Source of the DNA: Fomitopsis serialis
Lineage: Eukaryota > Basidiomycota > Agaricomycetes > Polyporales > Fomitopsidaceae
Assembly (NCBI RefSeq): GCF_022376445.1
Contig: NW_025955110.1
Location: forward strand, 37,285-101,284
Length of the DNA: 64,000 nucleotides
Direction: 5' to 3'
Both the position numbers and the translations under genes were made by a program. Below, piece by piece: positions 1 through 43,702 of this stretch. The first letter of the stretch is position 1. Every line of letters starts with the position of its first letter. Under the pieces are notes generated by a model that was not told the origin of the DNA, searched no databases, and was given only the letters and a program-made list of their open reading frames with translations.

Positions 1-401
1 GGATCAGGGGAAAGGGCGGACGGCCGAACCACAGTATCGGTTCCAGGCGAAGATCAACGAGGGAAAGGACCCTCGAGCGAAGGCCGAAGATCTGGCGCGG
101 CGGATGATGTACGAGAGCGATCAGAAGGCGAGCTGGGGGAGATTCTCGAGATCAGCCAGGAGTTTCGGAAGGTAGTTGACGAGCAGATCAAGACGCAACG
201 TGTGCAGGTCGCCGGCATGGCGGAGGAAGCGGTGTGGAACGTGGGGACCACCGAGCTGTCTAGCGGAGGGAACGTATTCGACAGCGGGTACTGGGACTCC
301 TTGACGCTGCGGGAGCTGCGGCCGCTGATCAATGGCGTCGGAAGGGCGGCGTGCATCCTGGACTCAGGGGCACAGATGGTCCTGATGCGGAAGGATATCT
401 G
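1..401 (+). pseudogene. Gypsy-1 left fragment: Gag C-terminal part and start of retroviral-type aspartic protease
   Basis: This is the interrupted 5' part of a Ty3/Gypsy polyprotein. One reading frame covers about 2-125 with a charged, Gag-like sequence (RAKAEDLARRMMYESD). A second frame continues from about 130 (GELGEILEISQEFRKVV), so one base appears to be missing near 127. The second frame reaches a classical aspartic protease active site, CILDSGAQMVLMRKDI (about 352-399), where DSGA carries the catalytic aspartate. The frame is cut at 401 by the inserted element. The next expected protease residues (WERVGGSLRPDEG) are found in frame at 43341, so this fragment and the one at 43343 belong to the same copy. 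The 5' end and LTR lie outside the window. Confidence 0.88.
400..401. repeat. Left copy of TG target-site duplication
   Basis: TG at 400-401 is repeated at 43341-43342, immediately outside the two CATCAGG termini. It falls in the protease tryptophan codon. The duplication is only 2 bp, so its weight comes from the exact frame restoration and the matching termini. Confidence 0.8.
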
Positions 402-414
402 CATCAGGGGAAAC
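402..414 (+). repeat. Left terminal inverted repeat of the giant element
   Basis: The 13 bases match the reverse complement of 43328-43340 at 11 positions. The first seven (CATCAGG) are identical, and the first six are shared with the termini of the small element at 44821. Confidence 0.85.
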
Positions 415-439
415 CGCCCATTCCCTTAAAGCCTTTAAG

Positions 440-457
440 ACACTTATAAACTACTTT
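440..457 (+). repeat. Subterminal direct repeat, left copy
   Basis: ACACTTATA followed by ACTACTTT matches 43268-43285 at 16 of 18 positions, in the same orientation. The copies lie 38 and 55 bp from their respective ends. CACTA-like elements usually have such subterminal transposase-binding repeats; binding here is inferred. Confidence 0.55.
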
Positions 458-1099
458 AAAAGCATTAAACCGGTCAAAGTGAACAGAAGAACACTCAAGA
501 CAAGTCCCCGGTTATGAGAAGGCCGAACACTTGGAAAATTGTCAAAGCATTATTGGATGCTTTTACACCAGCTCCCTCAGGCGGGTGATGATCCTCTTGC
601 CGTGCTTTTTGTTCCCTTTTGTCATGCTTTGGAGGTTCTGTTGTTCTGCTCTTGACCCTCTGTTTAACACTAAAAAGAGGCTGTCTGATGGCTTTCAAAT
701 CTACTCATTTTTGGTGGTTCTGGCGCTCCCCACGTTGCGGCGAAAAAAAGCATACATTGGACCACTATGCAATACCACTAATACAGAACTGGAACCCACG
801 AAAGCTATACAGTACTGACTTCCAGCCAATGTAGGAAGTTACATGATGACAGGTATACGGCTGGAAAATGGGACACGTACAGCTGGTACAGTGAAACATC
901 AAGAGGAGGCCAAGGCATAAGTATACGACAACATGGGCGATATTGAGACATACAGAACCAGGAGAAGAGATAGTCATAATCCGGGAGCACGGGTGGGCAG
1001 GGCTCGGATGCAGCGGGGAACCTAGGATCATTGTTGTAGATTAGTACGACCATAAATGAAAATGAATTGAAACCCTCTCTAAGAGGACTCACTCGCCGT
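458..1099. other. Left-end non-coding region of the giant element
   Basis: I see no supported gene here. The outermost part is A/T-rich with TTAAAG/CTTTAA words that recur near the right end (ACTTTG words at 43250-43300). The rest is unstructured sequence downstream of the DUF6532-like gene. Confidence 0.6.
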
Positions 1100-3875
1100 C
1101 TACTCGTCACTCTGTGAGAAGTTGCTCGGCCCAGCATCGTCACTGGTGGGGGCCCAGAGCTTGCTGATCAGGGAGACCGCGGTGGTAGGGCCTACTTTCT
1201 TCCTACCCTTCTCATCCACGGCCCCACGGTTGTCGTCAGGGGCCACTCCCGCAGTGACACTAATGCAGGTAGGAAGGTCAGGAACTCTGGTAGATAGTAC
1301 AGGACACTCACCGAATGTGCGTGGCAAGTGTCTGGTCCATGGACTTGCAGAACCTTGCGCAACCCTCGTTGTATACCGTCGTGTTCTTGGGATCCGCGCT
1401 CAACCGAAGCTCATCAATGCTGAGCTTGAAACCATCGTGCCTATGAGATACACTCCGTCAGCCAGTCAAGGCCGGCATGCTACTGGTATGAGACTCACAG
1501 GGGGGCATAGTTCTTCTCGTCGAAAGCCACCGTGACGTTCCCCTTCATGGCCTCGTCGAGAGACACAACAATCTGGCGCACATCATGTTATCCACAGACC
1601 GTACATGAAAGATGAATGTGCCTACAGCGCTGCACACTAGTGCGATCATATTGCTGGAGAGTGGGATCTTGTTGATGTCGAACCGGTCTTTATGCTCGGG
1701 GCGCAGAGCCTCCGGATTGGCTCCCATCCACCATTGACGTGCTATGATTTCTGCAATCGCCACGTTATGGAAGGGGGCTCGATGGTTAGCCACCCACAGC
1801 TAATTTTATTTCAGCATTCTCCAGCATGTAAATGTGAGTATACTACGTACCGATGGATCCACCCTGTAATCTGGCATCTGGAGGTCTCCGTGGTGAAAGG
1901 TGTCCTTGTCCTTGAGGAACCTCACACGATCCTCGGTAGCCTTCCGAAGCTTCTCTGCACTGGACCCGAAGTCCGACAGGTTGAACGTCAGGAAGGACTT
2001 CTCAACCACCCGCTTCGCCTTCTGTTTGACTTCCTGGCGGAACTGTGCAGCGACCTTGTAGACCTGGACAAATGGGTCTACCCCTAGCCCAGAGGATGAG
2101 ATAACGGAACATATACTCACCTTCCCCGACATGATGGCCCTCATTCCCATGTTCTCCCACATTCCCATGTTCTCCCACACGGGATCGTAGATGGCCTTGA
2201 ACTGCTTAGTTTGGTACATCGGGTACTTCTTCTGTGTTTGCTCGATGACCTCTAGCGGGGCTTGCTTCTTCTCCATGCTGCTGGCGTATTTGCGGGGCCA
2301 GGCGTTCACCACGGCGAGGTATACCCGAAACTCTTGGGTCGCACGGTGCAAGAAGCCTTTCAGAGGCTCCTCGTTGAGGAGTTCCTTGGACACCTCAATG
2401 GTATCGTCCCTAGACTCCTCGTCCTCCACCTTCACAGACTTGGACCGAGCTTGAGACTTCGTCTTCGCCTTCTGCTTGCCCTCCAGCTTCACGTCCATCT
2501 AAGAATGAAGTTCAAGTTAGCAGAGGGTCCCCGTGGCGATATAAGCATACCTCATCAGCGCCGCTGCGAGTGGGGGGATCACGTCCATCCGATCCGTTAC
2601 CCTCACTCCCCTCCAGCTGATCATCCTCATCCGAGACCTTGTAGGATTCTGTACCACTCCCCTCGGATTCGTCCACGGGTGATGCCTGTTTTGCCTTCCC
2701 CTTGCCTTTCCATCCAGCTTTCTTCGTGGGGGTCGTGTCGAACACTGTAACACGTGCAGCGGTGAATGACATATACAGCAGAGTGAACTCACCGACAGGC
2801 TCAGGAGTTCCTACATCCTCACCGCCATCCTCCTCGTCCCCGTTCTCGCTCCCATCACTGCCATCTGAGACCCCACCTTTGACCGTGCCCTTAGCCATAC
2901 TTCCTTTGACCTTGACCGCTTTCATCCCTGCGTATCTTCCATGTGTGCAATGATGGACGACTGGTTGTGAGTGGCTTACCAATGAGAGCGGAGAGCTGCT
3001 GCTGATCCTTCGACACCTTCGGGGCAGGCTTCTCGGGCAGACGAGTGATGACAACTTCGGGTTCTCTTGCCCTTTGGGGCGACCGGTCTTCAAGACATGA
3101 GTGCAGACTTGGTCCGGGAATATGCACATAGACAATGCAATGACACTTACTGGGGATGATCCTCGCATTGTCCTCCACGACAGTCAGCTCCGGGGATTCA
3201 ACTCGAGCTGACTTGCGCGAAGCTTGAGTTCTTGGCTTCTTCTTAGGCTGCTTCGTGCGTTCTTCTGTGTCGCTCGCCTCTTGGTCGGACGTCTGGAGGT
3301 GCTTCCTCTTGGTAGTGCTAGAGGCTTTCGTACGCGAGGGCGACGCCGGCGCTGAGACTATATCATAGTGTCAGTCCATGTGTTGGCAGGCGCATGTACT
3401 CACGTTGTTTCTTCTTTCCCCCTTGCCTGTTGACTTGGACGGCACCGTATCCTCATCCTCCTCATCCTCCTCATCCTCTCCAGCTTCAGCCTCGGCATCA
3501 TCTTCTCCCTCTTGGTCATCCTGCTCCATCGCGGCCGCGTTGTTATCCTGGATTGCTGCAACAAGATGTAGTATACTTCGATTGATCTGGCCACGGTAAA
3601 ATCTTACTTTGCCGCTTCTCTTTCGCCGCTGCTTCCTTCCTCTGTTTTGCGATGGAGCGAGCCATGGCGTTGATTTGCGATGCCGATGCACCGCTCATCT
3701 TTGTCTTCAAGAAGTCCTTGATCTCCTGTATGTCCCCGCTGCTGGCAACAGTGGAATCGGAAACCACATCGGACTGAGTCTTCTGGGAGCCATTCGCCTT
3801 TGACGGCGGTTTCGGAGCCTTCTTCGTGGTCTTCGCTGCTGCTGCAGCCTTGGAGCGTGTCTGCGGAGTAGACAT
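1100..3875 (-). CDS. DUF6532-like nuclear protein, multi-exon
   Basis: A minus-strand gene of about ten exons with clear GT-AG introns of about 45-60 bp. It starts at MSTPQTRSKAAAAAK (ATG at 3875) and stops at 1100-1102. The N-terminal half is basic and alanine/lysine-rich, then strongly acidic (Glu/Asp runs at about 3440-3500), as in intrinsically disordered nuclear proteins. The C-terminal half (exons at about 1500-2500) holds a helical region with EFRVYLAVVNAWP, FRQEVKQKAKRVVEKSF and RAPFHNVAIAEIIARQWW, followed by IPLSSNMIALVCSAV. This order resembles the basidiomycete DUF6532 family, which has no known function. An 18-bp in-frame tandem duplication sits at 2144-2179. Nearest neighbour is the TET/JBP-like gene, same strand. 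I recognised the family by motif memory, so the name is moderate in confidence; the gene itself is well supported. Confidence 0.68.
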
Positions 3876-4221
3876 GGTATGAGGCAACAACTAGATATGA
3901 GTTCGCAGAATGAGATCGGAGACAGACAAACTGCGAGGCGGGTCGACGACTCAAACCAGCGTTGAGCGTCCGCGCTGTCGATAACGGAAGAACCGAAGCC
4001 CCTTCGGAGATGCGGAGTGAAGCACTGACTGAGTCCGAAAGCTCCAAGTCCCAGAAGCTGCTCACCATCTGAGCAACGCTTGATGAAGAGTTTAGGGTAC
4101 TTACAACCTAGACCATGGACGAAGAGAGAGAGATGCAAGACGAACAGATTGGAGCGAGCATGACAGCCAGATCAATTGGTGGCAACCGAAGACGTACGTA
4201 CGTGTCGTAATATTAAAAACC
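3876..4221. other. Intergenic spacer between DUF6532-like and TET/JBP-like genes
   Basis: It would hold the promoter of the DUF6532-like gene and the 3' end of the TET/JBP-like gene. A short TACG repeat lies at about 4194-4203. I see no coding exon that I can support. Confidence 0.4.
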
Positions 4222-7147
4222 CTATTTAAAATATACATTGCCCTCCCACCCATTCCGGCTGCCCTTCGTCCACTTGTCTATTTCCTTGTCCGTGTGTAGT
4301 ACAATAGAAGCACGGCAGCCGGTGTAGTGGAGATTGAAGTGAGTTATACTGAAAGAAGGAAAGGCCACAGCATCGCCATTGCGAAGGGGAACCACGAAAC
4401 CGGGCTCGTACATACATAGGTCCCCGCCCTCGAAGTCACCAATGGGCAAAACAACGCACAATGTTTTGTCCATGGAATCCCTGTGAGCGGAAGTGGCAAC
4501 ATTCAGGTTAATGACGAGCGAGAGGAATGGGTGCACAATCGAGCCGGCGTTCCCTGGCAACACTTCCGCGTCAACGCTCATCTCCGCGTATTCTTGGGGA
4601 AACAAAATTTGGATCTGGTACACATTAGTTACGGATAGAACAGTGAGAAATGTCATTATCTGACGTACTTGCTCTCTGATCCATCCAAACACCTCGGCAA
4701 AAATGTGCTCAAGATTGTGGTAGACCCGTTCATGCTTGTGCATGTCAGCGGAGGGGTATGGCAGCATTTGACTGTAGTTGGTCCTGGAGCGGTCCGCCTT
4801 TCGAATGAGGTGCGGATGCGATTCACTGCAAACTTGGTAGCCCTATGGGATCACATAACACTCTCAGCTATAACGGAAAACAAACCAAGTGAGGCATGGG
4901 CGCACATACCCTTGTGCCATGCCTATTGTACCAGGCGAAATGCAGCGCCTCGAAAGAGTACTGCGGCCCCTGGGAGCATGAGCTCATGGTCTCAAGTCCA
5001 GAAGGTTCCTCATCGAAACAAGAGACGAGATCCGTGAACAGCCTGTGTCTCAACTTCTCTGGCATGTTCGGAAAGATACACATGATAAGCGAGCCCTTGC
5101 GGTCGCGGATCTCAACAGGGTCTCTGCAACAGTTGTACAAGAATTCAATATCATTGTTGAGAGTTGACGTGAAAAGCACTCACGTGGACATGGTGGGTGC
5201 AATCTTCACATACTTGTTATCATTGTTGATGCGCGAGCCTTCCTCATACATGGTTGAGAGCTGAACAAGCCAACGTAGTGTAGCATGTAAGTCAAAGAGT
5301 TAGATGGTGTTTGAACGAACTTACAATATATCGCAGCTCGTCGATGGTTCGAGGCTCCCGGGCGGCGTTCGCCCGGCCGCGCTCTCTCTCTGTCCACGAG
5401 AACGCCTCATCCGCAGTGGCTGGGACTGGAATTCTTCTATGGGCTTCGTGGAACAGGTCATAAGCTGCCGTAAGCGATATTCTTGCAGGGCGCTGTGCAG
5501 TAAACTGTGAGGCTGATGGTGCGGTAAACTGTGAGGCTGATGGCGCAGAGATGGGCGTAGCGGTTGGTCCTGGTTCCTCTCCCTCCAAGGGTTCGTCGCA
5601 AACCGTCAATGGAGAGGGAGGGGCTTCATTCTCTTGGTTATCTGAACCGTAGAGCCATCGTCCAGCCAACATGACTAGCTGGGTCTCCTTAGGGGCCTGT
5701 AGGGGCTGATAGAAGGCCAGCCACACATTCTTGTTGCGCGGCACCGGGCCGAAGTTACTGTGGGGAATAAAGATACATGACGTAGAGAGTCGACAACAAT
5801 GGACATGGCACTCACTTGAGCTTCAAAGAAGTGAAAACTAAATCACATCGATCCAGGTCGGAGCAGATGAGCGAATCGTGTAGCATGCCATAATCCGCAC
5901 ATATACGGGGTGATAAGAGGGTGTCGAACGTCAGTGGGAGTATTTGTCGCAGAGTTGATAACAGTGGAATGATTTTGTTGATCACAACCCCACCGACAGC
6001 CGTCTCTAGTGAAACGAAGTGGTCGGTGAGTGATGGAACCCGTCATACCAAGGAAACGGATGGCTAACCAGGATTTGGATTGCGAAGTACACTTGCAACC
6101 TGCCAGGCAAAATTGCCAACCGGATGAAGAAGACTGTGCTTCATATCCGCTATGGCGATGAGCATGAGAATGTATATGGAACCTACACAAGTTTATTGAC
6201 AGGAGCATTGAAGAATAAAATAGTGACGTACCTCCCCACGCCATGATGGCAAATTTACTCCCACATTCCACCCAACGACGGAAGGTACGATCGCACACGG
6301 GGTTGTCTAGATGCTTGACTTGCTTCTCGTAGACACCGTTAACGCTCAGCGAATGGAGATGTTGTAGACTAGATACAAGGAAATGTCAACTGGAACTCGG
6401 TGGCACAGTGGGGTTATGATAAAATAAAACACACCTAGAGCACTGAACACGAGCTGCAGGTACTGCACCATGAAGAGAAAGTCGGTGGCGGCACTGACGG
6501 CCGTCATACGCTTGCACCTTTGTATGATGGATGAGAGGGAATCGTCCAGGAACGCGGTTCTCTATCCCCATCTCGTTGCAATGCTTCCACAATGGCGTAC
6601 AGCGAATTGTTGTCACTGAGGGAAGCATCGAGGCCGTTGATGAAGCTCTTAACCGGCTCTGAAACTGTACCCTCCGGGGCATGTGTGTTCATCCATTGAG
6701 AGCCGGTGGCCCTGACTGCTTCTCCGCCGTTGCAGCGGTAGACTTACTCTTCTTTTTAGAGCAATTTTTGATGCTCTTGAAGGCCTGATCTGCACGTTTC
6801 CCAGATTTCTTGTTGCTCGAAGCTGCCAATTTTGAGGTATGCTTTTTCGTACTTTGGACGCGCTTGACGAGACTTCTGCAGTGCGTGATCTCTTGGGCTG
6901 TCAATTGATAACAATACTGCATACTGCGCACCTTCCAGACCCTCCCCATTGGCAAGTACATGCGGAGCCTGAGCCGCAGACGTCGACTGGATGCTGGCGT
7001 GATTGTGTCCCAAGAAGTCGCCTCAAGGGAAGATGGCTGGATGTTCGGGGACTGGGCAAGCCTCTCCCTAACGCCTTGTAGAGGTTGCGTCGAGACCGGC
7101 AAGTCGTCCAGAAGATTTAAAAGAGCCTCTGCTTCTGCTATCGTCAA
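4222..7147 (-). CDS. TET/JBP-like 2-oxoglutarate/Fe(II) dioxygenase A
   Basis: The enzyme probably oxidises 5-methylcytosine in DNA; TET/JBP enzymes use Fe(II), oxygen and 2-oxoglutarate. The gene is multi-exon. The catalytic core is near the C-terminus (4222-4600): a double-stranded beta-helix with the HxD iron-binding pair in NLNVATSAHRDS, the distal iron-binding histidine in ITHFNLHY, and the 2-oxoglutarate-binding arginine in GCRASIVLHTD. Conserved upstream exons include MLPYPSADMHKHERVYH and FEALHFAWYNRHGT, both typical of KDZ-linked fungal members. The N-terminal part is lysine-rich (about 6700-6900) and less certain; a Met at 7147 is the best visible start. A 24-bp tandem repeat encodes two SASQFTA units (about 5500-5550). 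All core residues are present, so the enzyme could be active. It belongs to the outer giant element. Confidence 0.8.
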
Positions 7148-7344
7148 GCTCAGGCATACTTGCCCGGTGTGTGGTCATGATCGGCGGTGAGTTGGACTTG
7201 GAGTTAGGCGCCAGTGGACATGGTGGATCGGGACATTGATATTGAACATTGGAACTGCGAAGAGAGCACGCTAGACCGTAATGCATACAAAAGGTTACAA
7301 ATCGGTGCGCAGTGTAATAGAATACCGGTGAATACATCCTTAAT

Positions 7345-10300
7345 CTACCCCAATGCGTCCATCAGTCTGCTGTCTGCCCACTGCATCGCCGCTCGAGAGA
7401 GTCGCTGGACCATGGAATCGTGAAACACCTTCAAGGCTTCCCCGGTCAGTTGACAGCTAACAAAACCACGACCTCCTCGAACACCTCGTCTTCCCGACGG
7501 ATGAACTCTCGAGTGGTGTAACCAGGGAGGTGCTGTGCCATCCATTGGCAAGCGGGGCGGAGCGATTGCGGTGGACGGTGTACAAGGGCCGAGGACCACT
7601 CAAGCCTCCCATGTTCAACGCCATCGCGTTAAACGTTCTCCGAGTGAGCACGCACATTCGCAACATCTCCCGCCAGAACTCCTGCTCGGGGGAGATAGAT
7701 CCAATCCACTCCGGAGAGGGATCCATCTTGAAGGACTAGGTCGGACCTCTTGTGAGGGGAACGGCACGAGAATGAAGGTAAGTCCACTCACCACGGTCGG
7801 GAAGCGATCTACGATCTTCTCCATGGTCGTCCCCCTGTCCACCTCCTCCAGTATCTCATCAAATCGGTCGCGGAGAACTATGACGGCGTCTAGCTTCATG
7901 GCTCATGCAGGAGGACGCCATGTAGGGCACGAGGCGGACATGCGAATGCCGACCAGTGCTCTTTGACCTCGATAGAGTGCGGCTGGTCCGGGTCTCCTGC
8001 GGGAAAGACGGGGCGAATGTTTTGGGGCGGTGGCTTCCCGGCCTTCGGCGGGACACCTGTGTCTTGTCCTGATGGGTCCACTCACCGAGGGCCTCCTCCC
8101 CTTCATCCCCAGTGGCACGCGCTTTCGTCCAGCTTTGACGCATGATACTCGGGTACCCTTCGAATTGCCCAGGGGCCCGTGATTCGTGGCGTTCCCGAAC
8201 AAACAGGAACATGAAAGCGAATAATGGCCCGACTGCCTGTCGAATGAGCTTGGCCACCTTTGGAATTGTTCATGTCACTTTGATCTTAGCACAGCGAGTA
8301 TGATAAGTATTTACTTACCTTCTTGAAGACGTGAGGGGCTGTTCCGAGACGCAAACCTCGATCATGATCAGATGGAAGTTCATGAACGAAAATGGAAAGG
8401 AGATGACGACGTCGGGAATGGTGTTTGGGTCGCCCTTGATAAGCATGGTAAGCTGTGCCAGGAGTTGGTGCTGCAGTGTGAATTGGGGGTGATGGCCGAT
8501 CTGGCGGAGCATGTTGCAGACGTAAGTAAAGATGATGTTTACCAGGGTCTCATGCACAGTGGAGGGCGGTTTATAAGGTGCCATGCTGAGCTTGGGGGCG
8601 AGGACAGAGCACAGAGGGAAAGGTCGCTCCTCATGGGCGCAATGCCCGCGCGTTTCCGGCGCTGGTTTTGAGCCGCCCACGGGAAGCTTCTCACAAGGAA
8701 GCTTTTGTGACAGGGAAGCGGATAATGGATCGATACACATACAATACGCTCGTACAAAGTTCGGAGGGTATACATAGATAGATGATGCGATAATCTACTC
8801 ATCTACGAGGACCAGACGGGGGTCGTCTCCAGCAGGGCTCCCCGCTCGAAACCTCTGAGTCCGCCGACGAACTCATGCGCTACATGCCCGACGGACTGGT
8901 CGAGGAAGAAGATGATGTCATTGAGGCATTCGTGGGCGAGGAGGTCCACCCGCTCCTTCCACTGGGGCTCCGTGGGGATGGCGCGCTTGAGGGCGCGATC
9001 AAGAGGCGTGATGCCCAGATGAGCATAGCTGTATGAGTGTATGATGGAATATAACCGATCCTTGAGGATCCGCGCCCATCCACTGGGCTGGTTTGCAGCT
9101 GCGACGCAGGAAGGTGAGGCTGCCAGGCAAGGAGCCTCTGTGCAAGGATGAGTACGGTGACCCATAGATGTGAACCCAATCTTACCAAGAAGTGCGATGT
9201 CTCCTTCTCCCAGTCCTCTAAGCCTCGCGCCTCCTCCACACATGTGCGGAAGTCGCCGAACTCAGCCCGCTCGTACGAAATGAGGCATGCCTGTAAGGCG
9301 GGCATATCCTCTTCCAGAGCTAGGAGGGGCGAGTGATACCCGGTACCCGTGCTGGTTGGGACAACCAGCGCGATAACGAAGCCTTGAAGGGTGGACATGA
9401 GGTCCAAAGCCCCGGCCATCTGTTCCTTTCATGAATCCTTGTTAACTGTAACAGCTTGGAGGCTTGGACATACCTTCTTCATCTCGTACTGGAGCTCCCC
9501 CACTGACTGCACCCCATGCAAAAGAAGAACTCAGTTCCGAGTTCATCCTTCTTCCTGATAGTCCTAACCACCCGCCCCTCATGCGGAACTGTACATCGAC
9601 GGTGAGAAGATCGCATTGAGAAGTCATGAACGTATCCTGCATCTCGACCCGAAATGCACTCCTATTGAGGAGACTCGCGAAACGCTGGGCCATGGCGATG
9701 GAGGAAGTCCATGAACGGTGGGTCCCAGAACCACTGCTTTCCGAGACTCCGGCCAGAAGTCAACGCTGTGTAACGCGTTAGCCGGAATAAGAGAAAAGGG
9801 TGTTCTTGGAACTCACCGCACGCGTTGAAGGAAAGCTAACCACATGCTGAGCCGAGGTTGGTAGGAATCATCGTCCGAATCAGTGTGGTGCATTGAAACG
9901 TCGTCGTCGTCATCCAAATTAGCGTGGAGCATTGATGTGTCTTCATTGTCCGACGCGTCGGGATAAGCGGGGTTCAGCTGCCAGAGTTTGGACAGTATGT
10001 CCTGCAGCACCCAGCAGCGACGTTCCTCAATGTGGGGTATGTCCTGAGGTTGAGTATTGACACCAACCATTCATGATATGTGAGACTGACATCTCACCTT
10101 CTGCACGAAGTGATCGGGGTTGGAGAGCTCCCAAATTTCCCGCAAGCTCCATATCTCCTCGAATACGTACACCATGAAATCGTGATCCACCGGATTCACT
10201 TCAAACTTCTTCAAAATGGCCCAGAACTCCGACGGTAACGGTTCCGAGACGATGGTCCGCTGAGAGCTTTCCGCACCGAGAGGTCGAGTGAGGCGATGCG

Positions 10301-32375: not shown

Positions 32376-32544
32376 CTGTCCGTAGTCCCCTCACATATGA
32401 GTTATCGTACTTTACATTATGTCGCCGAATCAATGTCAGTCTCATACAGCTGGATTGAATGCCGGCGTGGTATCCCGATAGCATTGCCTCTGTACAGTTG
32501 CCCACTGTGTAATGACATGCCGGCCCCGATATTCGAAGACCATC

Positions 32545-33036: not shown

Positions 33037-35944
33037 TCAGCGACGTCGCCATTCCCCATCTCCTGCGACTGACCTTCCTTTTGCGGCCCAGGGCCCCCAT
33101 GGGGCGAGCCACATCCACGCTCTCCGGTAAAGTGGGGGGAGAGGTGGGGGGTTGCGCAGGGGGAGGTGGCACCCCAGTGATTCCACCGGAAGTCGTTGGG
33201 AGAGCCAGCGACGTGCTCGGGGGGGTGACTCCATCTCGGGGACGGTGGGCTGCGACGGGGCCCTTCCATCTGCGTTCGTCTCCGATGGACCGACGGAGGA
33301 CTCGGCCTGTGGCGCCGGGAGCTCCGGACGGGTCACCTCGTTGGCCGGCGTCACTGGACCTGCTGTGGTGGGCGACGGCTCGGGAGCCACAACCGGGGAG
33401 CGGCCGGCACGCTCTGGGTGCATTGGCCGCGGCGGCGAGGAGCTGGGGGACCTGGCTGAACATTGGCCTTGGGACGAATGCACCGAGTCCGCCGGCTCCC
33501 GTACCGAATTCGCGACTTGCCCACAGGAGACGAGGGGGCAGTGGTGGGGGACCGGGGCGTCCTGGGTCAATGGTCCGGGGCCGGGAGATGCGGACGTGGC
33601 CATCACGGGCACCGGGGCTTCCTGAGTGGATGATCCGGGGCCGGGAGATGCAGAGGCGGCCATCGCCGGCAGCTGTTGCACATGAATGTTAGGCTGCAGT
33701 CGAGCAATAGTGAGATGTATGAGAAAGGACATACCTCGGTGGGCGCAGGGGGGACGACCGGTGCGTGCCGTGGCCCCATCCTCAACCGGAGGCCTTGGGG
33801 AGGTGGGTGCGTCTTCAACGACCGGTGCCGGGACGGGTGTTGGTGACCGGGACATGGCACCCGCGTTCATCTGCGGCCCCGCTTCTTCTTCATCGGCCTG
33901 CAGCGCCTCGCGGAGGATGTCCATGTACTCCTCCCGGTTAGCGTCGCCGGTCAATGCATAGCCTGACCGGAATGTTAGCCGGAGCATGCCAGTGTCATGG
34001 CACCACTCACCGAGGAGACGCTGATTCTCCAGCAGTGTGCTGTTCATTGCCTCAAGGGCAGCCACGCGTTCGTTCAGCTGCGCGACATTATTCTCCAGCT
34101 CCAGGATACGGAGCTCGGTCCTCTCTCCCAGCTCGGCCTGGCGTTGCAACACCACAACGGGTGCGCCGAGCGAGCCACCGTCGCCGCCGGGGACCACTGG
34201 ATACATGCGCCCTACTACGTGAGCTAGATGCATTCTCACCAGTGCAGACAGCACTTACTGATGTCCGTGGGATCGGCTGGTGGGTCCAACGCAGTCTTCG
34301 CCCGCTTTCGCGGGGGCTCTTTGCCGGCCGGTGCCTTCGACGATCCCTCGCCGCGATCCGCTTTACCTTTCCCCTTCGACGGGGGTGCGCTACCCTTTCG
34401 CTTCGAGGGTTGTTTGGTGACGGGTGTCGGGCGGCGGGACGGCGTATTACTGCGTCTCGTGCTCCGCCGAGACGCCGTCGTTGCGACCGAGCCCTCGTCG
34501 CTTTCGGTGCCCGACTCGCCGTTTGTCGTCGGGGGCCCGTCGGCAACACTCAGGGAGCGGTCGGAGACCACGCTGCTCGCGCGGGAGCTGCCCGCTGACG
34601 ACTTCTTGGACGACTTCCCCCTCCCAGACTTCTGCGGCTTGAACGTCCCCTCGGTGTCGATGTCCTCGCACTTCGTCTTCTTTACGTGGCAGAAGTCGCA
34701 CGCGGCCTGCTTTCTTTTCTTCGGCTTGCCGTCTTTCCGGAATGCCGACACCTTCGGGACGGAGATGTAGCAGGGGAATCCCTTGCACGCAATGCAGGGA
34801 GGATCCTGCCGACGAGGTGAGCGGCACATTTAAATGTGATCGGGAATACTCACCCGCAGCTCCTTGTCCCCCTCCTTCCGGGTCTCCTTCTCGGCGCGGT
34901 AGTCCATCCTGAAGGCCGCTCGGTCCTTCTTAGCCGCTTTCGCCTTCTTCGCATCCACCGTAGCGTCCGGGGTGTCCAGCTTCAGGATCCCTTTGCGCCC
35001 GGCTTTGCCTACAATCTCTATGTCAGTCAGGGGACACATTGAGACGGTGGGCAACTCACGCTTGCCCTTTGACTTCGCCGAGACCCTTTCTTCCTCTTCC
35101 TCCTCCTCCTCCTCCTCCTCCTCTTCGAGCTCCTCCTCGTCGGTCGAATCATCAAACTGGGGGCGGGCACGATCCTTGCCTTTCTTGGACCGTGGCGGAG
35201 TCGCTGCGCGTTTGCGCTTCTTGGATGCAGCCGTGCTTCCAGTCGACCTCTCGCCACCGGTCTTCTTCCCCGTGTCCCGGGATCGCCTGGGCTCCTCTTC
35301 ATCGATCTCCATGCGATCCTCCTCCATCGGTATCTCCTCTTCTCCATCCGAGCCGTCTCCCGCAAGCTCTTGGAAGCGCACCGCGGGGCCCTGGCGAGAA
35401 GGACCGGGTGTTGCATGCGTTGGGCCGGGTGCCACATGAAAGCCGGCCGGCGCGTCGGGATTGTACCAATCGCAATCCGGCAGGCGCTCATCGTCCGGAC
35501 TGATGTTGGACAAGCGAACCGGGACGCCGATGGCATCGACGACGTTGATCTCTACAATGGCAGAGAGCAGCAGCAAGGGAACCAGAGGAGGTTCCCCCAC
35601 CGAGTCGCAGAGCGTGATCTGCTCCATGACATCGCGCTAATACACCCGGTAAGCATCCTCCGTTTGATGAGCTGCATGCATTACTTACCAGGAGTGCCTG
35701 CAGCTCGTCGAGCTGCCGACTTGATGTCAATAACCCGGAGAAGTGAGATGGCGCGAACACTCACTATTTCCTCCAGTTTTTTCTCCTCCTCATCCTCATA
35801 CACCAAGCGCCCTCCGAGCATCTCGAGCAGGCGGTTGTTTGCATCGTGGAGGTAGGCGGCTATTTGCTCCGGCGACATTGCGGTCCTCGGAGGAACGTCG
35901 TTGTTGGCCGGTGGGGCGGCGGCGGTGGCAGCGTCGGTCGACAT
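33037..35944 (-). CDS. KDZ-associated unknown protein K5 with cysteine cluster and coiled coil
   Basis: Multi-exon gene starting MSTDAATAAAPPANN (35944). Order: a helix (MSPEQIAAYLHDANNRLLEM), a hydrophobic exon (PLVPLLLLSAIVEINVVDAI), LPDCDWYNPDAP, a long disordered acidic/basic stretch with about a dozen consecutive Glu residues (35090-35130), then a cysteine cluster, CIACKGFPC and, after a 25-residue basic loop, CDFCHVKKTKC (34660-34800). This resembles a Zn2Cys6 DNA-binding cluster with an enlarged loop. A leucine-rich coiled coil follows (ELRILELENNVAQLNERVAA, about 34070-34150), then a Pro/Ser-rich tail to 33037. The cluster plus coiled coil suggests a DNA-binding dimer, perhaps a regulator of the element. 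It is divergent from K6 with only 255 bp between starts. Confidence 0.62.
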
Positions 35945-36199
35945 GGCTTGGTAGGGCAAATGCGAAGCAGAGTTACGGAAGCGAGGGGGGAGGGCGTGCT
36001 GAGAGCTTGCAGGCGAGGTGATGAGAGCAGGAGACAAGCGACGCGAAGCCACACCGATCGCGAAGTCCAACGTGGCTGGTCACGTGCACCCGGCGGGCCG
36101 CGGGATGTTTAGCCGAACATGAACATCGTGATGGCGCGTCGCGCCGTTCTTCCCATCCGTCCTCTATCATCTTTCTTCACATTTCTTCGCGCTACACTC
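35945..36199. promoter_or_regulatory. Compact bidirectional promoter between K5 and K6
   Basis: The two start codons are 255 bp apart on opposite strands, so both promoters must lie here or overlap the 5' ends. No clear TATA box is visible. Confidence 0.4.
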
Positions 36200-38186
36200 A
36201 TGTCTGCTCAAGGTAGGTCTCAGCACGCATCTCCGGATCATCGCTGACTTCTCCGGCCAGATTCTACCACTCCACTCGCATCCGGCGAGCCACATGTGGC
36301 CGCGGCGAAGCGACCGGCGTCTCAGGAGCGGGTGGCTGTCGAGCCTCAGGTAAGCCAATATTACCTACGAGGATTTGGTTCCTAACACTACTATTCCATG
36401 TCTGCATGCAGGCTCCAATTGTCGGTGCCGGGGATGCGAAGGTCGGAAAGTACCTGGTGCGGCCGGGAGGCTTCAATGTGCCGATGAAGCGTAAGGGCTC
36501 GCATGCCCCGCAAGAGAAGGTACGTGCATTCTTTGTCTTACTGTTACACCATAACGCTGAGCGTCGAGTACGCAGGAGCGATCTCCATCGGTCCGGCGCA
36601 ACACGCATCCTGCGGATGCCGACGAATCATCTGAGGCCCCGGTGAAGCGTCTCAAAGCTTCGGTAAGTGCTCAGACTACGTTCCGTGTGCACATAACGCG
36701 TGTTGACCACGACGATGGACAAGTTGACCACCACACAAGCGGGCCCCACGCATGCAGATAAGATTGGTGCGGGCATCTCGGAGGCACTGCCGGGTCCGGA
36801 CACCATAAATGCGGCAAGGGAGGTAAGTACTGTTCACACTCCCATTGCCCATGTTTGCGGTTTTCGCTCTAATCACTTCGATGTACCACCCTGTAGGAAA
36901 ATCAGCAACCGGCACAAGTGGCTCCCGGGACCACGATCAAGCTCGGAACATTTGGTGTTCCCTTCAAAAGAATGCCGAAGGTATGTCTTGCACACTGCGT
37001 GGGCTGTTCGACGCTTACGAGACTTTGTATTCGCGTTCAAAAAGATGCCAGGGATATCGGCCATACTGGGCAGGTTAAGCCAGCTGCCCTTGTAGCACAT
37101 CCGGCCGCATCCGGCGATCCCGAGGTAGCAACGCCTGAGCCGGAGGTTGCTATCGTAAGCCACACCAAGCCGGCCGGGAGAAGCACACGCAAGAACACTG
37201 ACGTGGAGGTCGTGGACGAGGGGAGCCAAAATATTGCAGAGAGTGCCAACCGCAAGTCCGCGCCCCCTGTCCCCGTGGCTACTAAGCCTCGCCCACGCCC
37301 GCGCATATTGAAGGACCCTCGGCCCGATCCGTTTGGCCCAGCCATGGTGGGTCAGGACAAAGCCGCTAAGCCCGTCGGCCTGGCGGTGCGATTCCGGTCT
37401 CAGGGTGAGGGATCAGGCCACCACGTCGGGGCTGATGCCACGGTTGAGGATGACCGGGTGTCGCACCACAATGCAGCTGAGTATGGCGGGGCTCCGGATC
37501 AGAGCCATCTTGAGGGCAACAAGGTCATGGCTTCTGTAGGTGCTCATGCCATCCTGTCCCATATATACTCATCGTTAGCCTCAGCCTTCGGAGATTACGC
37601 AGGTCGTGCTGAACAGGACTGAGCACGGTGAGTGTTGTTTGTAGTTACAGTTCCACACTGCCTGGTTCTCGGCACTGCCCCGAGTGTCATGTGCGTGACT
37701 CCAGCCGACGCTCGTATACACGCCTGCTCAGCGGCGTCGGCTCGGGCATGCATCCGGACTGTATGACCACCAGGTGTCAAGTCTGATGACGCCGTGTTTA
37801 TAGCGTACCGAGTACACGACGAGACCATGTTGCTCGGCAGGGAAGAAGACCCGTTTTTCACGTTTTCGGTGACAATGACTGATCGTCACGATCCCGAAAA
37901 TCATTTGTGGGAGGCAGACAGTCACCCTGATGTGGACTGGCCGCCAAATTGTATTGTCATGTTTTCCAAGGCTTGATTACCTGATTCGCTGACATATCCG
38001 TACTCAGTTCCCGGACCAGCCTTCACTGGTGCCACACCGACACGAGTCGCCGAGCTCCAGGCGGAGAAGGCAATCATCATGGCTCGCATTGACGCGCTTA
38101 CCGCGCTTCAAGCAGCCAACAATCGTAATCACCGCGCCGTTGACTGGGTAACGGAGTACTATCAGGCGCGGGGTCGGTCGGGGTAA
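36200..38186 (+). CDS. KDZ-associated unknown protein K6, many small exons
   Basis: Starts ATG at 36200 (MSAQ, then an intron) and ends with a TAA at 38184-38186. It has at least eight small exons with good GT-AG borders, for example GDAKVGKYLVRPGGFNVPMK and APGTTIKLGTFGVPFKRMPK. The latter two share a 'GxFxVPxKR' pattern, which hints at an internal repeat. The middle is Pro/Ala/Lys-rich. A conserved-looking part follows (VDWPPNCIVMF-like residues near 37940), and the C-terminus is a coiled coil, RVAELQAEKAIIMARIDAL. The family is not recognised. Exon joins in 37560-38010 are uncertain. Confidence 0.5.
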
Positions 38187-38324
38187 CGGGCATAGTTATA
38201 ATGTGTGTAGTAAATCGTTGGAATGATCTGAATGCTATACTGGTCCCTCACACTGAAGTCGCCGAATGATATTTATCACGGATGGGCACTGAATATAAAT
38301 GGTAAAACGGTCGGTGAGTCACAG

Positions 38325-38965
38325 GCCGGACCGTCGAAACGTCGGGCCGAGCCTACCCAGGCAGCCCTGGGGTAGGTACTGCAGGCCGTATGCAACGCCG
38401 GCCGGACCGTCAAAACGTCGGGCCGAGCCTACCCAGGCAGCCCTGGGTAGGTACTGCAGGCCATATGCAACGCCGGCCGGACCGTCGAAACGTCGGGCCG
38501 AGCCTACCCAGGCAGCCCTGGGTAGGTACTGCAGGCCGTATGCAACGCCGGCCGGACCGTCGAAACGTCGGGCCGAGCCTACCCAGGCAGCCCTGGGGTA
38601 GGTACTGCAGGCCGTATGCAACGCCGGCCGGACCGTCAAAACGTCGGGCCGAGCCTACCCAGGCAGCCCTGGGTAGGTACTGCAGGCCATATGCAACGCC
38701 GGCCGGACCGTCGAAACGTCGGGCCGAGCCTACCCAGGCAGCCCTGGGTAGGTACTGCAGGCCATATGCAACGCCGGCCGGACCGTCGAAACGTCGGGCC
38801 GAGCCTACCCAGGCAGCCCTGGGTAGGTACTGCAGGCCGTATGCAACGCCGGCCGGACCGTCGAAACGTCGGGCCGAGCCTACCCAGGCAGCCCTGGGTA
38901 GGTACTGCAGGCCGTATGCAACGCCGGCCGGACCGTCGAAACGTCGGGCCGAGCCCACCTACCGA
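38325..38965 (+). repeat. 75-bp minisatellite, right arm of the KDZ element
   Basis: About 8.5 copies with spacing 75-76 bp (GTCGAAAC words at 38333, 38409, 38484 and on). Each has CGCCGGCCGGACCGTC and a GGCAGCCCTGGG palindrome. Further single GCCGGCCGGA boxes continue to about 39270. The period is a multiple of three, so continuous frames arise in all phases; these are not genes. Box orientation is inverse to the left array. Confidence 0.9.
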
Positions 38966-39319
38966 GCCCCGGGTACGGCCGACAGGTTACATCAATCGCC
39001 GGCCGGAACGTCTCAGCAGTACTGGAACTGGCATTCTGAGATACCGGCCACCACGTCTGGTAGGCATTCATGGTTGACAGGCCGTCACGCTTTGAGTGGT
39101 TGTGCTCACTCGCCGGCCGGAGCGTCTCAGTCGAACAATGTTAATGGACGGCCGAGCCTACCCAGACGTGTGGGGGAAACCCATGCATCCTGGCCACCAC
39201 ACCGCCCATGGCATCCGTTCAGCGTCGGCCGCCACGTTCCCAGCATTCCACGGTGCCACCGGCCGGAACGCTTGCATCGACCGACTGCTCGCTCCGGTCG
39301 GCCTCCGGGCCAACGTTCC

Positions 39320-39351
39320 AGACGGCCAAATCTCACTCCGGGTTTACCGTT
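39320..39351 (-). repeat. Right inverted repeat of the KDZ element
   Basis: Reverse complement begins AACGGTAAACCCGGAGTGAG. It differs from the left copy at two positions of 32. Confidence 0.85.
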
Positions 39352-39389
39352 GGTAACGGGTTAGACACACTAAATAATGTGGGGCCCCC

Positions 39390-39700
39390 ACCTATTCACC
39401 AGCTCTCCCGGACGGCCATTTGCACGCCCGTTTCACCGCTGATCACCCGCCCATCCGTTCGTTGACTAGCGCACCTGTTCATCCGTTCGCTCGCCCGCCG
39501 ACCCATGGACCACCATCACTAGCTCAACTGCCCGCACCCATCAACTTGCCGCCTATTCACTCATTCACCTGGAGACACATTCACTCGCGTGCCCACACAC
39601 CTATTCGCCGCTTTCCCGCATGTTCATTTGCGTGCCCGTTCCACCGCTGATCCCCTACGCCCGCCGCCGTTCTCCGTGCACGTTCATAATCTCCCTCCGA
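39390..39700. repeat. Degenerate low-complexity tract, right part
   Basis: It resumes the tract that ends at 19770 (cacccgcccatccgttcg, ctcgcccgccg). This supports one original tract in the outer element, split by the KDZ element. Confidence 0.6.
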
Positions 39701-40179
39701 GTAGGCCGCATTCCCTGCGCACGTCGGGTCCTGTAGCCTGCAGACCCCGATTTAACACGCTCGTTCAGTGTGACGGTGAGTTCGTCATCATCTTGCACTG
39801 GACAGTTGGATTGACATTGGGCGGAAGGCTACGGTGTGCACCTGCATGAACCTTAGGTGAGGCAATATGTATATCTGTGCTACGAGCGGGACCTCTAATC
39901 ACTGCGTATCGATAGCGATCGCGAAGCTGAGCGACTACAAGTCGCGCGCACGAATTCTCCTCGACCCAGAGAGAGCAGTCCGGAGACGTGGGTGGATGAG
40001 GTCGAGGATGTGAGGTCGGATGAGAGTCCACGAAGGAACGGGTCATGTTTGGTATGGATGGGATCGAGAAGGACAGGTGGAATGTGGTGCGTGGTAACCT
40101 TGTCCAATTGGAATGACGGTTGACTGACTTGCGAGCAACAGGAATGCTCTCCATGCACTAATGACGCCATACAAGGGTC
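39701..40179. other. Non-coding gap in the giant element
   Basis: No supported gene. Short frames on both strands have no recognisable motif. Confidence 0.4.
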
Positions 40180-40931
40180 ATGGTGCCCCGACTCAATGCA
40201 CCGAGTCCTGCAGAGGCTCTGCGCCGGATGGCGAATTCAGAGTGCAGAGAGGGTGTGCCCTCTGCCCTGCTGACGGCTGTCGCCCGACTGGCCTTCACCG
40301 CATCACAGCCCCATCGTCGCCGACTCTTCCCCCGCCTCTTCTTCCTCTCACTCACCGTCACCCTCTGCAATCAGTACACTGCCTGGTGGGCCGTGCCCGC
40401 GGCGAAGGCTACAGAGGTCGTCATTGTCGAGGCGAACAGCGGAGGCAAGGGCGCGAAACCGAAAACCACCTCGCGTCAGGCCCGACTGGCGCTAAACCAA
40501 AGACCTTCAAGGCTATACAAGGCCCCCCCGTCTCCCGCCCAGCCGCCGCTGCGCACCGTCCACCTCAATAACCCCTCGGAGGTCCCGAAGACTATGAGGG
40601 CGACAATGCAGCCCTCGACCACAGCCAGCGTCGCTTACACGCCCTACTTCCGCGAACACCACAGGAGTGACGAGAGCAACAGTGAGGGCAACGATGAAGG
40701 GGTAGGCAACAAGCTCCAGAAGAAGGGGAGAAAGGTGCGTCCACAACCTCGCTGTGTTGCGCGTACGCTCATTGCTCTATGCAACAGAACCGTGCCTCCG
40801 AGTAATACCACACGGCCGACCCTTTCATCGACGACTCTGCGCTCGCGCAAGACGAGCGAACCTTCTTCGCGCATGGGCAGCCCAAGGGGTTCTACGTGTC
40901 AAGTGGACAGGTGGTGTTAGTGGATAGTTAG
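40180..40931 (+). pseudogene. HPC2/ubinuclein-like gene fragment with in-frame stop
   Basis: HPC2 is a subunit of the HIR histone H3-H4 chaperone complex. Its conserved domain in fungi contains a DPFIDDSE motif. Here an exon at about 40788-40931 reads YHTADPFIDDSALAQDERTF and ends GFYVSSGQVVLV. It is preceded by a likely intron (40735 to about 40787) and an acidic/basic exon with KLQKKGRK. A TAA stop at 40803-40805 lies in the same frame just before the domain, so the fragment cannot make the full domain as read. The upstream part has PKTFKAIQGPPVSRPA in another frame. It is probably a captured piece of a host gene. The domain assignment is from motif recognition. Confidence 0.6.
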
Positions 40932-41449
40932 TGAATACGTGCGTGTTTCCCTTCGTCATGTGCTCTTGCGTATGTGGGACGGGTGGCTCGAGAACTTTCA
41001 TCATTGGTCCTAACCTACTTCATTCAAGTTCCTCCAGTATCGAAGAAACCAACGCGAAAGGTTTTCGTTGCGCCTTCTGTGTCCGTCGTCACCGCGCTGG
41101 CCTCCGCTGTATCCCTGGCTACCTGCGCAGAACATGGCAGGGAGCACACACGGACCAGCCCACGTTCGTCACGGCGAGCATGTCCGCGCCAGAGGGTGTC
41201 CGCACGCGGTGGTGGCCCGCCGACCTCAGCCGGCCGACGCTGTACAATCTCGCGGTCACGCTTGCGCTGGGCGACAACCTTGGTACCAAATCGTCACGGC
41301 GTCGTACACGGTGCGTTCGGTTTTCCGGTGGATCAAGTTGCTCCAGACGCCGTATAGCGACCAGTACGGATGACGTCGCGAACACGGGGATTGGGTGGGG
41401 GGATCAGTGGCATCTCGCGGTCAATGGACAGGAGTTCTACGGGCAGGGG

Positions 41450-41572
41450 ACGAACATCCACCCGTTCGTTCCGGACTCATGGGCATCTGAGAACGTGCTG
41501 GATAAGGCGAGTACCTTCTATGTTGACAATTGGGGTGATTTGTACGTGTATCAAACTCTGGTAGTCTACTGA
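41450..41572 (+). pseudogene. Plavaka transposase C-terminal remnant
   Basis: Reads FVPDSWASENVLDKASTFYV then DNWGDLYVYQTL, closely matching the last exon of the Plavaka gene (DSWSSENVLETASTFYVNNW). No other transposase domain is visible upstream, where 40932-41449 has only decayed sequence. Together with copy d of family X it forms a partial duplicate of 14520-15995. Confidence 0.85.
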
Positions 41573-41757
41573 GCTATGTAATAGATTGAACTTCCATCTT
41601 ACAGGCTCATTGAGCCAGAAGCGCGCGTGTCTCTGTGTTCGGCGCTAATATTTCAAAACTTCTCACGCCTTGTTCAACGCTTGCGCGTCGCTCTCGCACT
41701 CTTTGCGAAGACTTTGTTTTTACTCTCACTCACTTCACCATCCACCCGTCTACTGCC

Positions 41758-42817
41758 ATGTCTTCTTTGAACTCGCGCCTCCAGTTCGACATATCGACCT
41801 TCCTTCCTCCCTTCCGCGAGGTCTGCAAGAACGCCAAGCCGTGTCCCGTACTGCAGAACGGTTGCCTTAACCACCTAACGGTGGTTGAGATATCCAGGAC
41901 GGGATTAGGGACGTTGTGGAGCCACGTGAGTCCCTAGTAATGCGGTGCTGTCTTGTTGAATGCTGACAGAATCTACTCAGTGCCCAATCCCTCACCAATC
42001 CTGCTGTACGTCACTGAGCACGTTGCAGCCGAACGACCGCGACATCGCCGTGGTGCGCCCGTACATCAACAACATACTGCCGGAGGACGCACCGCACCGC
42101 TTCTTCTTCGTCGGAGGCATCCAGGCGTGGCACCGGAGTGTTGGATTCCCGCATTGTCTTTACCAGAAGGACAAGCTAGCTGTGGTTGAGGTTTTCTTTT
42201 ACTTCGAGGTGCGTTTGTTGGTCTCTGCGTGTATTGTTGAAGGGCTCAAAGGGACCGGGCAGAATTTCTATGTCCCGATGATGTTGCCCCTTATGTGCCG
42301 CGTGCACGGCGACTCGGAGATAGAGCTTCCGTTCCGCCAGCCCGTCACCGAGCAAGTCATTCCATGCCTGAACCGCTGGAAGCGGGATCCCAACGAGTTC
42401 CCGGTACGCTTCGAAATCTACGACGTCGACGAAGAGAGGTTCGTTCCCCTCGCGTCCGTCGACGAACCGATTCGCATCGCCCTACCCCTTCGCCACCTAA
42501 TCGTCATCAAGTACGAGCATATCCACGGCACTCTCTGGCACCCATCCTGGGCTAAAGGAATGCGGCCTGCAAGTCCTCTGGGCGGCATCCTGGCGGACAT
42601 GTACCCCTACCGGTTCATCTGGCCGGTGGACCTCCCATATCCTCGCAGCCGCATCAACGCCTTGTCCGTGGTCAGGTTCGATCGGCTCCGCGGAGCTCAC
42701 GTCTTCACGCCCGCCCAAGGCCATCGGAGGTGCGCGGTGGAGACGATGAATGGTCCGGAGGATGTGGACGAGGAGGCTCAGAGTTCCGATGGTAGGATGG
42801 CGACTGACGAGAACTAG
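41758..42817 (+). CDS. Family X protein, copy d
   Basis: A 316-residue paralogue from exons 41758-41925, 41981-42208 and 42263-42817. Exons 1 and 2 have exactly the lengths of copy a (168 and 228 bp), with phase-0 introns. Start MSSLNSRLQFDISTFLPPF. It keeps FFFVGGIQAWHRSVGFPHCL, LPLMCRVHGDSEIELPFRQP and VIPCLNRWKRD. It is the copy closest to a, and the 5' flank is also homologous (GTTCGGCGCTA and CTTCTCACGCCT words before both starts). The frame is intact, but the acidic tail of copy a is absent. Function unknown. Confidence 0.8.
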
Positions 42818-43327
42818 GTAGACGTATCGACTAGTTCCCGTTACCATGGCCCTTTTCTGTACCGTCTTTTTGTATTTTTTGGAGAGGGAGCTGGGGATGA
42901 AATTTCTGGTCTGTGCTGACAACAAGGACATGGACTCGGACGCGACTTTCTGTGGCAGAAGGAGTTCAGTACCACCCAGTTTGACGTTGCCAGTATAAGT
43001 TCTGTCACGCCTGTAACACATGGTACAGTTCATACGGAATAGAAATGGATTTACGGGCCCACAATAGCGAGCCTCAAGCTAAAAAATGTATCCGTAATCC
43101 CGCCAGTGGTTGGCCCTCTAAGATGATAATTAAATCAAATGGATGCTATGCCTACCAGAGAAATCAAGTCAAGAGCAAGTGAAGAGACTAACATAATTCC
43201 AAATTGACTGCGATTACGGTATACAAAGCGTTGAAATATATCTCAGGTACTTCCAAAGTGTTTGGTCACACTTATACATTACTTTGGGTTACTTTGAAAA
43301 TCAGGCGCTCTCTTGGGCACATAAAGT
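42818..43327. other. Right-end non-coding region of the giant element
   Basis: A/T-rich, no gene seen. It contains repeated ACTTTG/CAAAGT words and the subterminal repeat copy at 43268-43285. Confidence 0.6.
43268..43285 (+). repeat. Subterminal direct repeat, right copy
   Basis: Matches 440-457 at 16 of 18 bases in the same orientation. Confidence 0.55.
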
Positions 43328-43340
43328 GTTTTTCCTGATG
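43328..43340 (-). repeat. Right terminal inverted repeat of the giant element
   Basis: Reads GTTTTTCCTGATG, the inverse of the left terminus with two differences. TG (43341-43342) follows as the target duplication. Confidence 0.85.
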
Positions 43341-43702
43341 TGGGAGCGCGTCGGAGGGAGTCTTCGCCCCGACGAAGGATGCGTAATGGAAAGCGCGAAC
43401 AAGATGACCACTCGGACGATAGGGAAGGCCATCGGGATGGAGTTCGTGTTCGATGACGAGGTAAAGATCGTCATGAATGTCCAGGTGGTAAGGGACGCTC
43501 CTTTCGAGGTGCTCCTGGGCCGGCCCTTCTTCGCCGCGAGCTGTTGCGAGACCCGGGACTTCAAGGACGGAAGCCAGACGGTCGTCCTTACCGATCCGCA
43601 GAGCAACCGCCGCGTGATGGTACCGTCCTTCGAGCGCCGCGCGGGGTCGAAGAAGAAGAGTGAGGGACGCCCGGCCGAAGATCCTCCCGCGGAGGATTTT
43701 TA
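43341..43702 (+). pseudogene. Gypsy-1 protease, C-terminal part
   Basis: Continues the protease cut at 401: WERVGGSLRPDEGCVMESAN, then the second conserved protease segment APFEVLLGRPFFAA. It ends with a Lys/Pro linker (KKKSEGRPAEDPPAEDF) and a stop at 43701. The following reverse transcriptase frame lies one base off and reads through a VDDASNASGDD linker, so one T is probably missing in the T run at about 43697-43701. Confidence 0.88.

Follow-up and report, generated by a model that had tools for sequence, protein, structure and literature searches.

The stretch of DNA analysed here (the window, 64,000 nucleotides) is C58:37285-101284 of Fomitopsis serialis, contig C58 being NW_025955110.1 in a genome of 66.2 Mb and 806 contigs. 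It contains a large DNA transposon lodged in the protease frame of a Gypsy element. Very probably, this is a 23.3-kb autonomous-type PlavakaB transposon that entered at a TG, belongs to a giant lineage with a fixed gene plan and harbours a nested KDZ element, the two together making a 42.9-kb composite. The transposon has exact ends and a target-site duplication, exists in three near-identical copies, carries the KDZ element between duplications of that element's own and is syntenic with other Plavaka loci of the genome. An earlier note on this DNA had taken the whole 42.9 kb as one mobile unit. This is not borne out: two other copies end at the same bases without 19756-39381, and the unit is 23.3 kb.

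Insertion site, ends and copies

In the window the PlavakaB-type element extends from 402 to 43340 on the plus strand (42,939 bp including the nested KDZ element), with the same boundaries in its copies on C126 and C458/C404. It is flanked by the target-site duplication TG, whose left copy (400-401) lies inside the Gypsy aspartyl-protease frame and whose right copy at 43341-43342 was re-read in the sequence. With the insert removed and a single TG retained, the flanks form one open aspartyl-protease frame. An intact copy of this protease elsewhere in the genome has a weak Pfam match to gag-asp_proteas (E 2.2e-5, below the cut-off) and one to Asp_protease_2 just above the cut-off (E 3.8e-5). 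A search with the right flank finds 11 other Gypsy copies, 10 of which are uninterrupted at the site, with a single TG and no insert. Nine of these align over 116-118 bases of the left flank. The tenth, L052, also reads through, but has just 12 left-flank bases before its contig starts; in the eleventh, L058, the match ends short of the insertion site. Unrelated sequence at this point is seen in none of the ten copies that reach it. The joined flanks and the ten empty sites found by this search thus bear out the claim of the earlier note that the insert interrupts the protease and that its frame is restored.

The left terminus, CATCAGGGGAAAC (402-414, plus strand), is found at all three copies. 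The right terminus at 43328-43340 reads, as the reverse complement on the minus strand, CATCAGGAAAAAC and agrees with the left one at 11 of 13 bases. Re-reading the sequence in this way upholds both the CATCAGG-type termini and the TG duplication that had been noted. All three left ends and all three right ends have the form 5'-CATCA..TGATG-3'. Such termini, with target duplications of 2-3 bp, are described for PlavakaB (PMC12730594, Kojima 2025). The duplication is 2 bp (TG) at the window copy and imperfect at C458/C404. Judging by its PF18759 transposase domain, its termini and the 2-bp duplication, the element would be of PlavakaB type. Six-letter words in the terminal 300 bases show only a weak excess (AAGTGT occurs 5 times there and 9 times elsewhere in the core), too weak for arrays of binding sites at the element ends to be claimed.

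Searches with the left and right 321-base ends give three genome matches each (3 candidates per search, all scored). The copy on C126 (reverse strand, C126:36214-65604) has both ends. On C458, which has the left end, the match runs to window position 14530, close to the end of the contig; C404 starts at window position 14536 and holds the right end. These two look like one copy split by a contig break. Both C126 and C458/C404 are uninterrupted from window position 19755 to 39389, and the extra block 19756-39388 (duplication included) is found in the window copy only. The element core in the window is therefore 402-19755 plus 39389-43340, or 23,306 bp. A search by both ends, as proposed in the earlier note, does yield two more copies, but neither carries the KDZ block.

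Over about 23.3 kb aligned in each case, 9 substitutions separate the window copy from C458/C404 and 32 separate it from C126. The other differences between copies listed within the gene models are mostly single-base indels; many such indels next to few substitutions are read as probable assembly error. The whole core is present on two separate contigs, C58 and C126, the latter with a different insert. The element appears to have jumped recently. The most likely course is that the Plavaka DDE transposase would cut at the CATCA..TGATG ends and move the whole 23.3 kb by cut-and-paste with a 2-bp duplication; the anatomy of the element supports such an action of the transposase on its ends. The different insert of the C126 copy amounts to 6.1 kb and is a long terminal repeat (LTR) element at C126:43126-49228, inside a core gene (A2, see below). 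Its two repeats, 205 bp long, are 99.5% alike; it contains an open frame of 1791 residues and has a 5-bp duplication, GAGAT.

The right flanks of the three copies (the Gypsy element, a KDZ element and the C404 locus) have no mutual similarity (blastn, E<=1e-8). For C458/C404 there is a homologous empty site at C745:52220, which matches at 91% along 1.5 kb of the left flank and at 90% along 0.5 kb of the right one. To the right of the C126 copy stands a KDZ element, and the four close relatives of this KDZ element that were examined run on alike beyond the junction. On its left, C126 has 208 bases at the contig end, 99% identical to the left flank of C458. The C458 and C404 flanks share a 625-bp inverted repeat.

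A few features of the surroundings are added here. A 1.5-kb repeat, 84.5% alike, flanks the disrupted Gypsy element at C58:33548-35051 and at 54095-55619 of the window. The latter is 99% like C458:1-1485, so that this repeat is common to window 54.1-55.6 kb and the far flank of C458. The repeat was considered as the LTRs of the disrupted Gypsy element and rejected, since it also occurs at C458:1-1485; it thus does not define the Gypsy boundaries. The KDZ element at C126:25971-36213 is next to the C126 Plavaka copy, as would be expected if Plavaka had inserted into it; this would be the reciprocal of the nesting in the window. The C126 KDZ element is about 67-82% like the window KDZ element over the longer matches. 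In the right flank of the third copy, at C404:14497-28820, a further Plavaka transposase lies about 7.2 kb from a fragment of a dioxygenase gene, the two being oppositely oriented. A possible second Plavaka right end, CATCAGGAAAACC, is found at C404:14497 and is a plausible candidate only.

The nested KDZ element

The nested element occupies 19756-39381 (19,626 bp; no strand assigned) and is absent from the two other copies. It lies between two copies of a 7-bp target duplication, GGGCCCC, at 19749-19755 and 39382-39388, both re-read in the sequence. C126 and C458/C404 are continuous across 19755/39389, and therefore 19756-39381 is a separate insertion. The boundaries were read from the sequence, as the BLAST alignment ends (19762/39382) overran by a few bases. 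The left terminus, GAGCCTACTGAG, recurs at a second KDZ element, at C126:25971, with a different flank. The earlier note had counted this element as cargo of the transposon, which does not hold, given its own termini and 7-bp duplication and its absence from the two other copies. A Kyakuja-like KDZ element of 19.6 kb thus lies within a Plavaka copy, with a duplication of its own.

Gene models here and below come from our own splice-aware predictor with Pfam and are approximate. A TET/JBP gene of the AG type is modelled on the plus strand at 19501-22150 (PF12851, E 4.9e-13), with its domain near 20.8-22.15 kb; the model start at 19501 precedes the KDZ boundary and is a model error. The protein matches structures of CcTET (8jkk_A, E 8.8e-29, and another, E 9.7e-29). 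It has Ser at H+5 and Asp at H+11, which are the published marks of the AG type (PMC12730594). A KDZ transposase with a CxC2 cysteine cluster is encoded on the minus strand at 24896-28157 (PF18758, E 2.8e-29; PF18803, E 9.9e-12). A KDZ transposase, a 7-bp duplication, an AG-type TET and a relative of CcTET are also features of TET-bearing Kyakuja elements (PMC12730594). The termini are unlike: CA..TG is given for two Laccaria Kyakuja families (PMC12730594), whereas the ends here read GAG...GTG. The nested element may thus be called Kyakuja-like by its 7-bp duplication and AG-type TET, and not by a tree.

An HPC2-like fragment reported in the earlier note was not recovered in Pfam scans, which covered part of the predicted proteins of the KDZ region. 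Matches in the scanned proteins are to TET/JBP, KDZ, CxC2 and, below the cut-off, VATC; SH3_16 is just above the cut-off in one repetitive frame at 38390-39364. The models at 29373-32375 and 33037-35944 (first 666 residues) have no Pfam match. The KDZ element also contains tandem arrays of 118 bp near its left end (19820-20764) and 75 bp near its right end (38295-39048), and 24-25-bp repeats built on CGGGCCGAG at two places, 24361-24819 and 32519-32709.

Gene plan and dioxygenase of the Plavaka element

In the plan of the element, a DUF6532 gene, a TET-like dioxygenase gene and a gene called X lie on one strand and the transposase with a tandem array of A genes on the other. On the minus strand of the window, a DUF6532-domain protein is predicted at 1100-3875 (9 exons; PF20149, E 1e-14), a divergent TET/JBP-like 2-oxoglutarate/Fe(II) dioxygenase (HRD...H...R) is located at 4222-6561 by tblastn with P0001-P0003 (its 5' part is approximate), and gene X follows at 7446-10547. 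The model of X is uncertain, and the copies differ here by many single-base indels. On the plus strand, the predicted Plavaka transposase at 11440-14625 contains the full PF18759 domain (profile 1-325 of 325, E 1.5e-112), the sole transposase recognised among the core proteins scanned. A predicted intron inside it near 13.3 kb was set aside, as it may reflect a single-base assembly difference between copies and not a real intron. Among the same predicted core proteins, none has a Pfam match to a Starship-type tyrosine-recombinase captain, though no search was aimed at captains.

Downstream of the transposase, our own prediction and homology searches place three orphan genes on the plus strand, A1 (14864-15983), A2 (16239-17221) and A3 (17526-18678), which form a paralogue array. 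A fourth, A4 (41758-42817, plus strand), is a duplicate of the A1 segment at an offset of 26,894 bp in the window. The ratio of nonsynonymous to synonymous substitution rates (dN/dS) for A1 versus A4, the only usable pair, is 0.38; synonymous divergence of A3 from A1 and A4 is saturated, and the exon model of A2 is out of frame. In the protein collection the A proteins have five matches, four from F. serialis and one other. As a guess, the DUF6532 protein, X and the A proteins could be accessory DNA-binding or regulatory parts.

The same plan is found at other Plavaka loci of the genome. For this comparison, co-location rows were picked by eye, one per locus, leaving out further exon rows of the same gene. 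Merging gives 122 Plavaka loci from 139 rows, 70 dioxygenase loci from 124, 74 KDZ loci from 108, 49 DUF6532 loci from 123, 14 X loci from 48 and 88 A-gene entries (49 merged) from 117. All counts are lower bounds, drawn from the best 123 of 323 Plavaka, 90 of 218 dioxygenase and 115 of 166 DUF6532 candidates. On the expected side and strand, the 122 merged Plavaka loci have a dioxygenase at 35, A genes at 23, DUF6532 at 21 and X at 12. At least two of the four companions occur together at 23 loci, at least three at 15 and all four at 6. The opposite side of the transposase is nearly empty, with 3 dioxygenase, 2 DUF6532 and no X matches downstream and A genes upstream at 4 loci. A KDZ match is nearby at 7 of the 122.

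Spacing is also nearly constant. At the 15 loci with three or four companions, DUF6532 lies about -10.7 kb, the dioxygenase about -8.3 kb and X about -3.6 kb from the transposase, with longer distances at C72 (-12.6, -10.5 and -5.7 kb). The first A gene is found at +2.4 to +3.7 kb and further ones every 1.1-1.8 kb or so, up to five. Three of the 15 loci are copies of the window element, and others form apparent near-duplicate pairs (C121/C779, C124/C345, C72/C794). Grouped by equal or similar scores and not by a tree, the 15 loci would represent roughly ten independent lineages. Seen from the dioxygenase, Plavaka is found within 12 kb at 41 of 70 loci, the two genes being oppositely oriented at 34 of the 41, and KDZ is found within that distance at 5 of 70; uniform placement predicts about 4.4% near Plavaka and 2.7% near KDZ. 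The better dioxygenase matches at other loci show about 41-74% identity where they align, and therefore the gene plan predates the recent burst. The earlier note had described at least four non-transposase genes as gathered by the transposon. Several such genes are indeed carried, but their fixed order, strand and spacing at other Plavaka loci do not fit "gathered".

The dioxygenase of the window has the motifs HRD...THFN...GCR, which contain an HxD/E...H iron triad and a 2-oxoglutarate Arg. By analogy with the known TET/JBP family, its HRD, H and R residues would be the ligands of iron and 2-oxoglutarate. Of 18 aligned relatives, 13 extend as far as HxD and conserve it; THFN is conserved in 10 and, in addition, GxR in 8, and the remainder end earlier or diverge towards the end. 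Tet_JBP matches 11 of these 18 family members at E<=0.05, with a best E of 2.4e-6; the relative P0001 scores 18.0 bits. The HxE hallmark of the PE type is lacking, as the window gene has HRD and all 13 relatives that reach the motif have HxD. Nor does the window gene have the AG-type Asp at H+11. Lacking the published marks of both, it may belong to a further type, the comparison being with the PE and AG types. In total 19 proteins of the family were found, mostly in polypores, Boletales and Mycena-like agarics. Suillus ampliporus and Serpula lacrymans each have one protein in which a dioxygenase sequence precedes DUF6532, the same order as on the window minus strand, which suggests that the plan is old. 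Viral contigs scanned with the dioxygenase alignment gave 11 pattern matches, none of which encodes a relative.

Alternatives, known systems and meaning

The outer ends and the TG duplication enclose the whole stretch and, had the KDZ element entered first, a KDZ-loaded Plavaka could in principle have jumped as one. That the 42.9 kb is a single cargo transposon, with KDZ moving along as cargo, is nevertheless quite unlikely: the KDZ element has termini and a duplication of its own, the two other copies are without it, and no second 42.9-kb copy was found among the three matches for each end. It is hardly credible that a repeated block was spread by segmental duplication or ectopic recombination instead of transposition. 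Such an origin could account for the 208-bp left flank shared by C126 and C458, whose right flanks differ. Beyond this flank and two repeats, however, the flanks are dissimilar at E<=1e-8, all junctions lie at the same terminal bases, and the window insertion has both a clean TG duplication and empty sites. The companions might also be ordinary host genes, or co-clustered repeats that are neighbours of Plavaka by chance where transposons abound. The dioxygenases form a large family, and 29 of its 70 merged loci have no Plavaka match within 12 kb (some may be relics or contig ends). Chance neighbourhood is still very improbable in view of the near-constant order, strand and spacing at the 15 loci, the nearly empty opposite side and the far lower proximity of KDZ.

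A 23.3-kb PlavakaB transposon with a fixed gene plan is the preferred reading, and several observations weigh against it. A clean two-sided 2-bp duplication is seen at the window copy only. The C458/C404 copy is split over two contigs and, compared with the empty site on C745, has GC duplicated plus two extra bases at its left end. The equal left flanks of C126 and C458 next to differing right flanks mean that the left flank of C126 would be either an assembly chimera or a recombination product. Reading frames are not judgeable base by base owing to the single-base indels between copies. Of the 122 Plavaka loci, 87 are without a dioxygenase in the expected place, and at 9 a dioxygenase is present within 13 kb, though its side or strand is wrong; the dioxygenase loci without nearby Plavaka, given above, point the same way. 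The six loci that have every companion include two copies of the window element, and other members of the lineage are known by gene order only. The window dioxygenase matches Tet_JBP below the Pfam cut-off (E 0.0066; 16.1 bits versus 34.9). Its profile comparison with the KDZ-borne TET aligns HRD, H and R, but at 2% probability and E 0.025, and PDB sequence searches with the Plavaka-borne family gave no TET match.

Giant Plavaka repeats and dioxygenase-bearing PlavakaB are each already published. TET-bearing Plavaka is reported from Agaricus bisporus and Gymnopus confluens only, with a dioxygenase of the PE type and its HxE hallmark; Fomitopsis pinicola and Serpula lacrymans are among the species in which, by the same account, none was detected, despite an association implied by Iyer et al. 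2014 (PMC12730594). The element described here resembles TET-bearing PlavakaB in its termini, 2-3 bp duplication, Plavaka transposase and transposon-borne TET/JBP-like dioxygenase. It differs in its polypore host, in HxD without Asp at H+11 and in having DUF6532, X and the A array in its plan (PMC12730594). In Amoebidium, giant Plavaka repeats reach up to 50 kb (PMC11244446). Unlike the element here, their genes are intron-poor and many encode tyrosine recombinases; the passages of that paper on these repeats mention no dioxygenase/DUF6532 plan (PMC11244446). Starships are likewise large fungal elements with many genes. As described, however, they belong to Pezizomycotina and use a tyrosine recombinase, in place of the Plavaka transposase, inverted termini and 2-bp duplication found here. 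A Marasmius repeat library includes elements of up to about 42 kb, their type unnamed in the text (PMC9674265). In Ganoderma, KDZ, Plavaka, CxC2 and DUF6532 are listed together among the domains that are extra in two species (PMC8955403). A literature search of limited depth retrieved neither an account of such a gene plan nor one of an HxD dioxygenase on Plavaka.

We lean, by a modest degree, towards a broader picture: a PlavakaB lineage of about 20-25 kb in mushroom-forming fungi, whose stable five-part genome comprises DUF6532, a fourth TET-like type (HxD), X, the transposase and an expanding array of orphan genes, and which has diversified within one genome, is still jumping and inserts mutually with TET-bearing KDZ giants. 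For transposon TET genes, a role in oxidising methylated bases for expression has been proposed (PMC12730594). By analogy, the dioxygenase here would oxidise the methylated bases of its own element, which would stay expressible and so be helped to evade silencing by cytosine methylation.

What began as a single odd insertion becomes a class that can be tested: giant DNA transposons of basidiomycetes whose ends are exact, which have burst recently and whose genes follow a conserved plan in place of random cargo. One can now ask if a transposon equipped with a TET-like enzyme is thereby spared from silencing. The mutual nesting and adjacency of both giants would offer a route for such enzymes to pass between transposon superfamilies.

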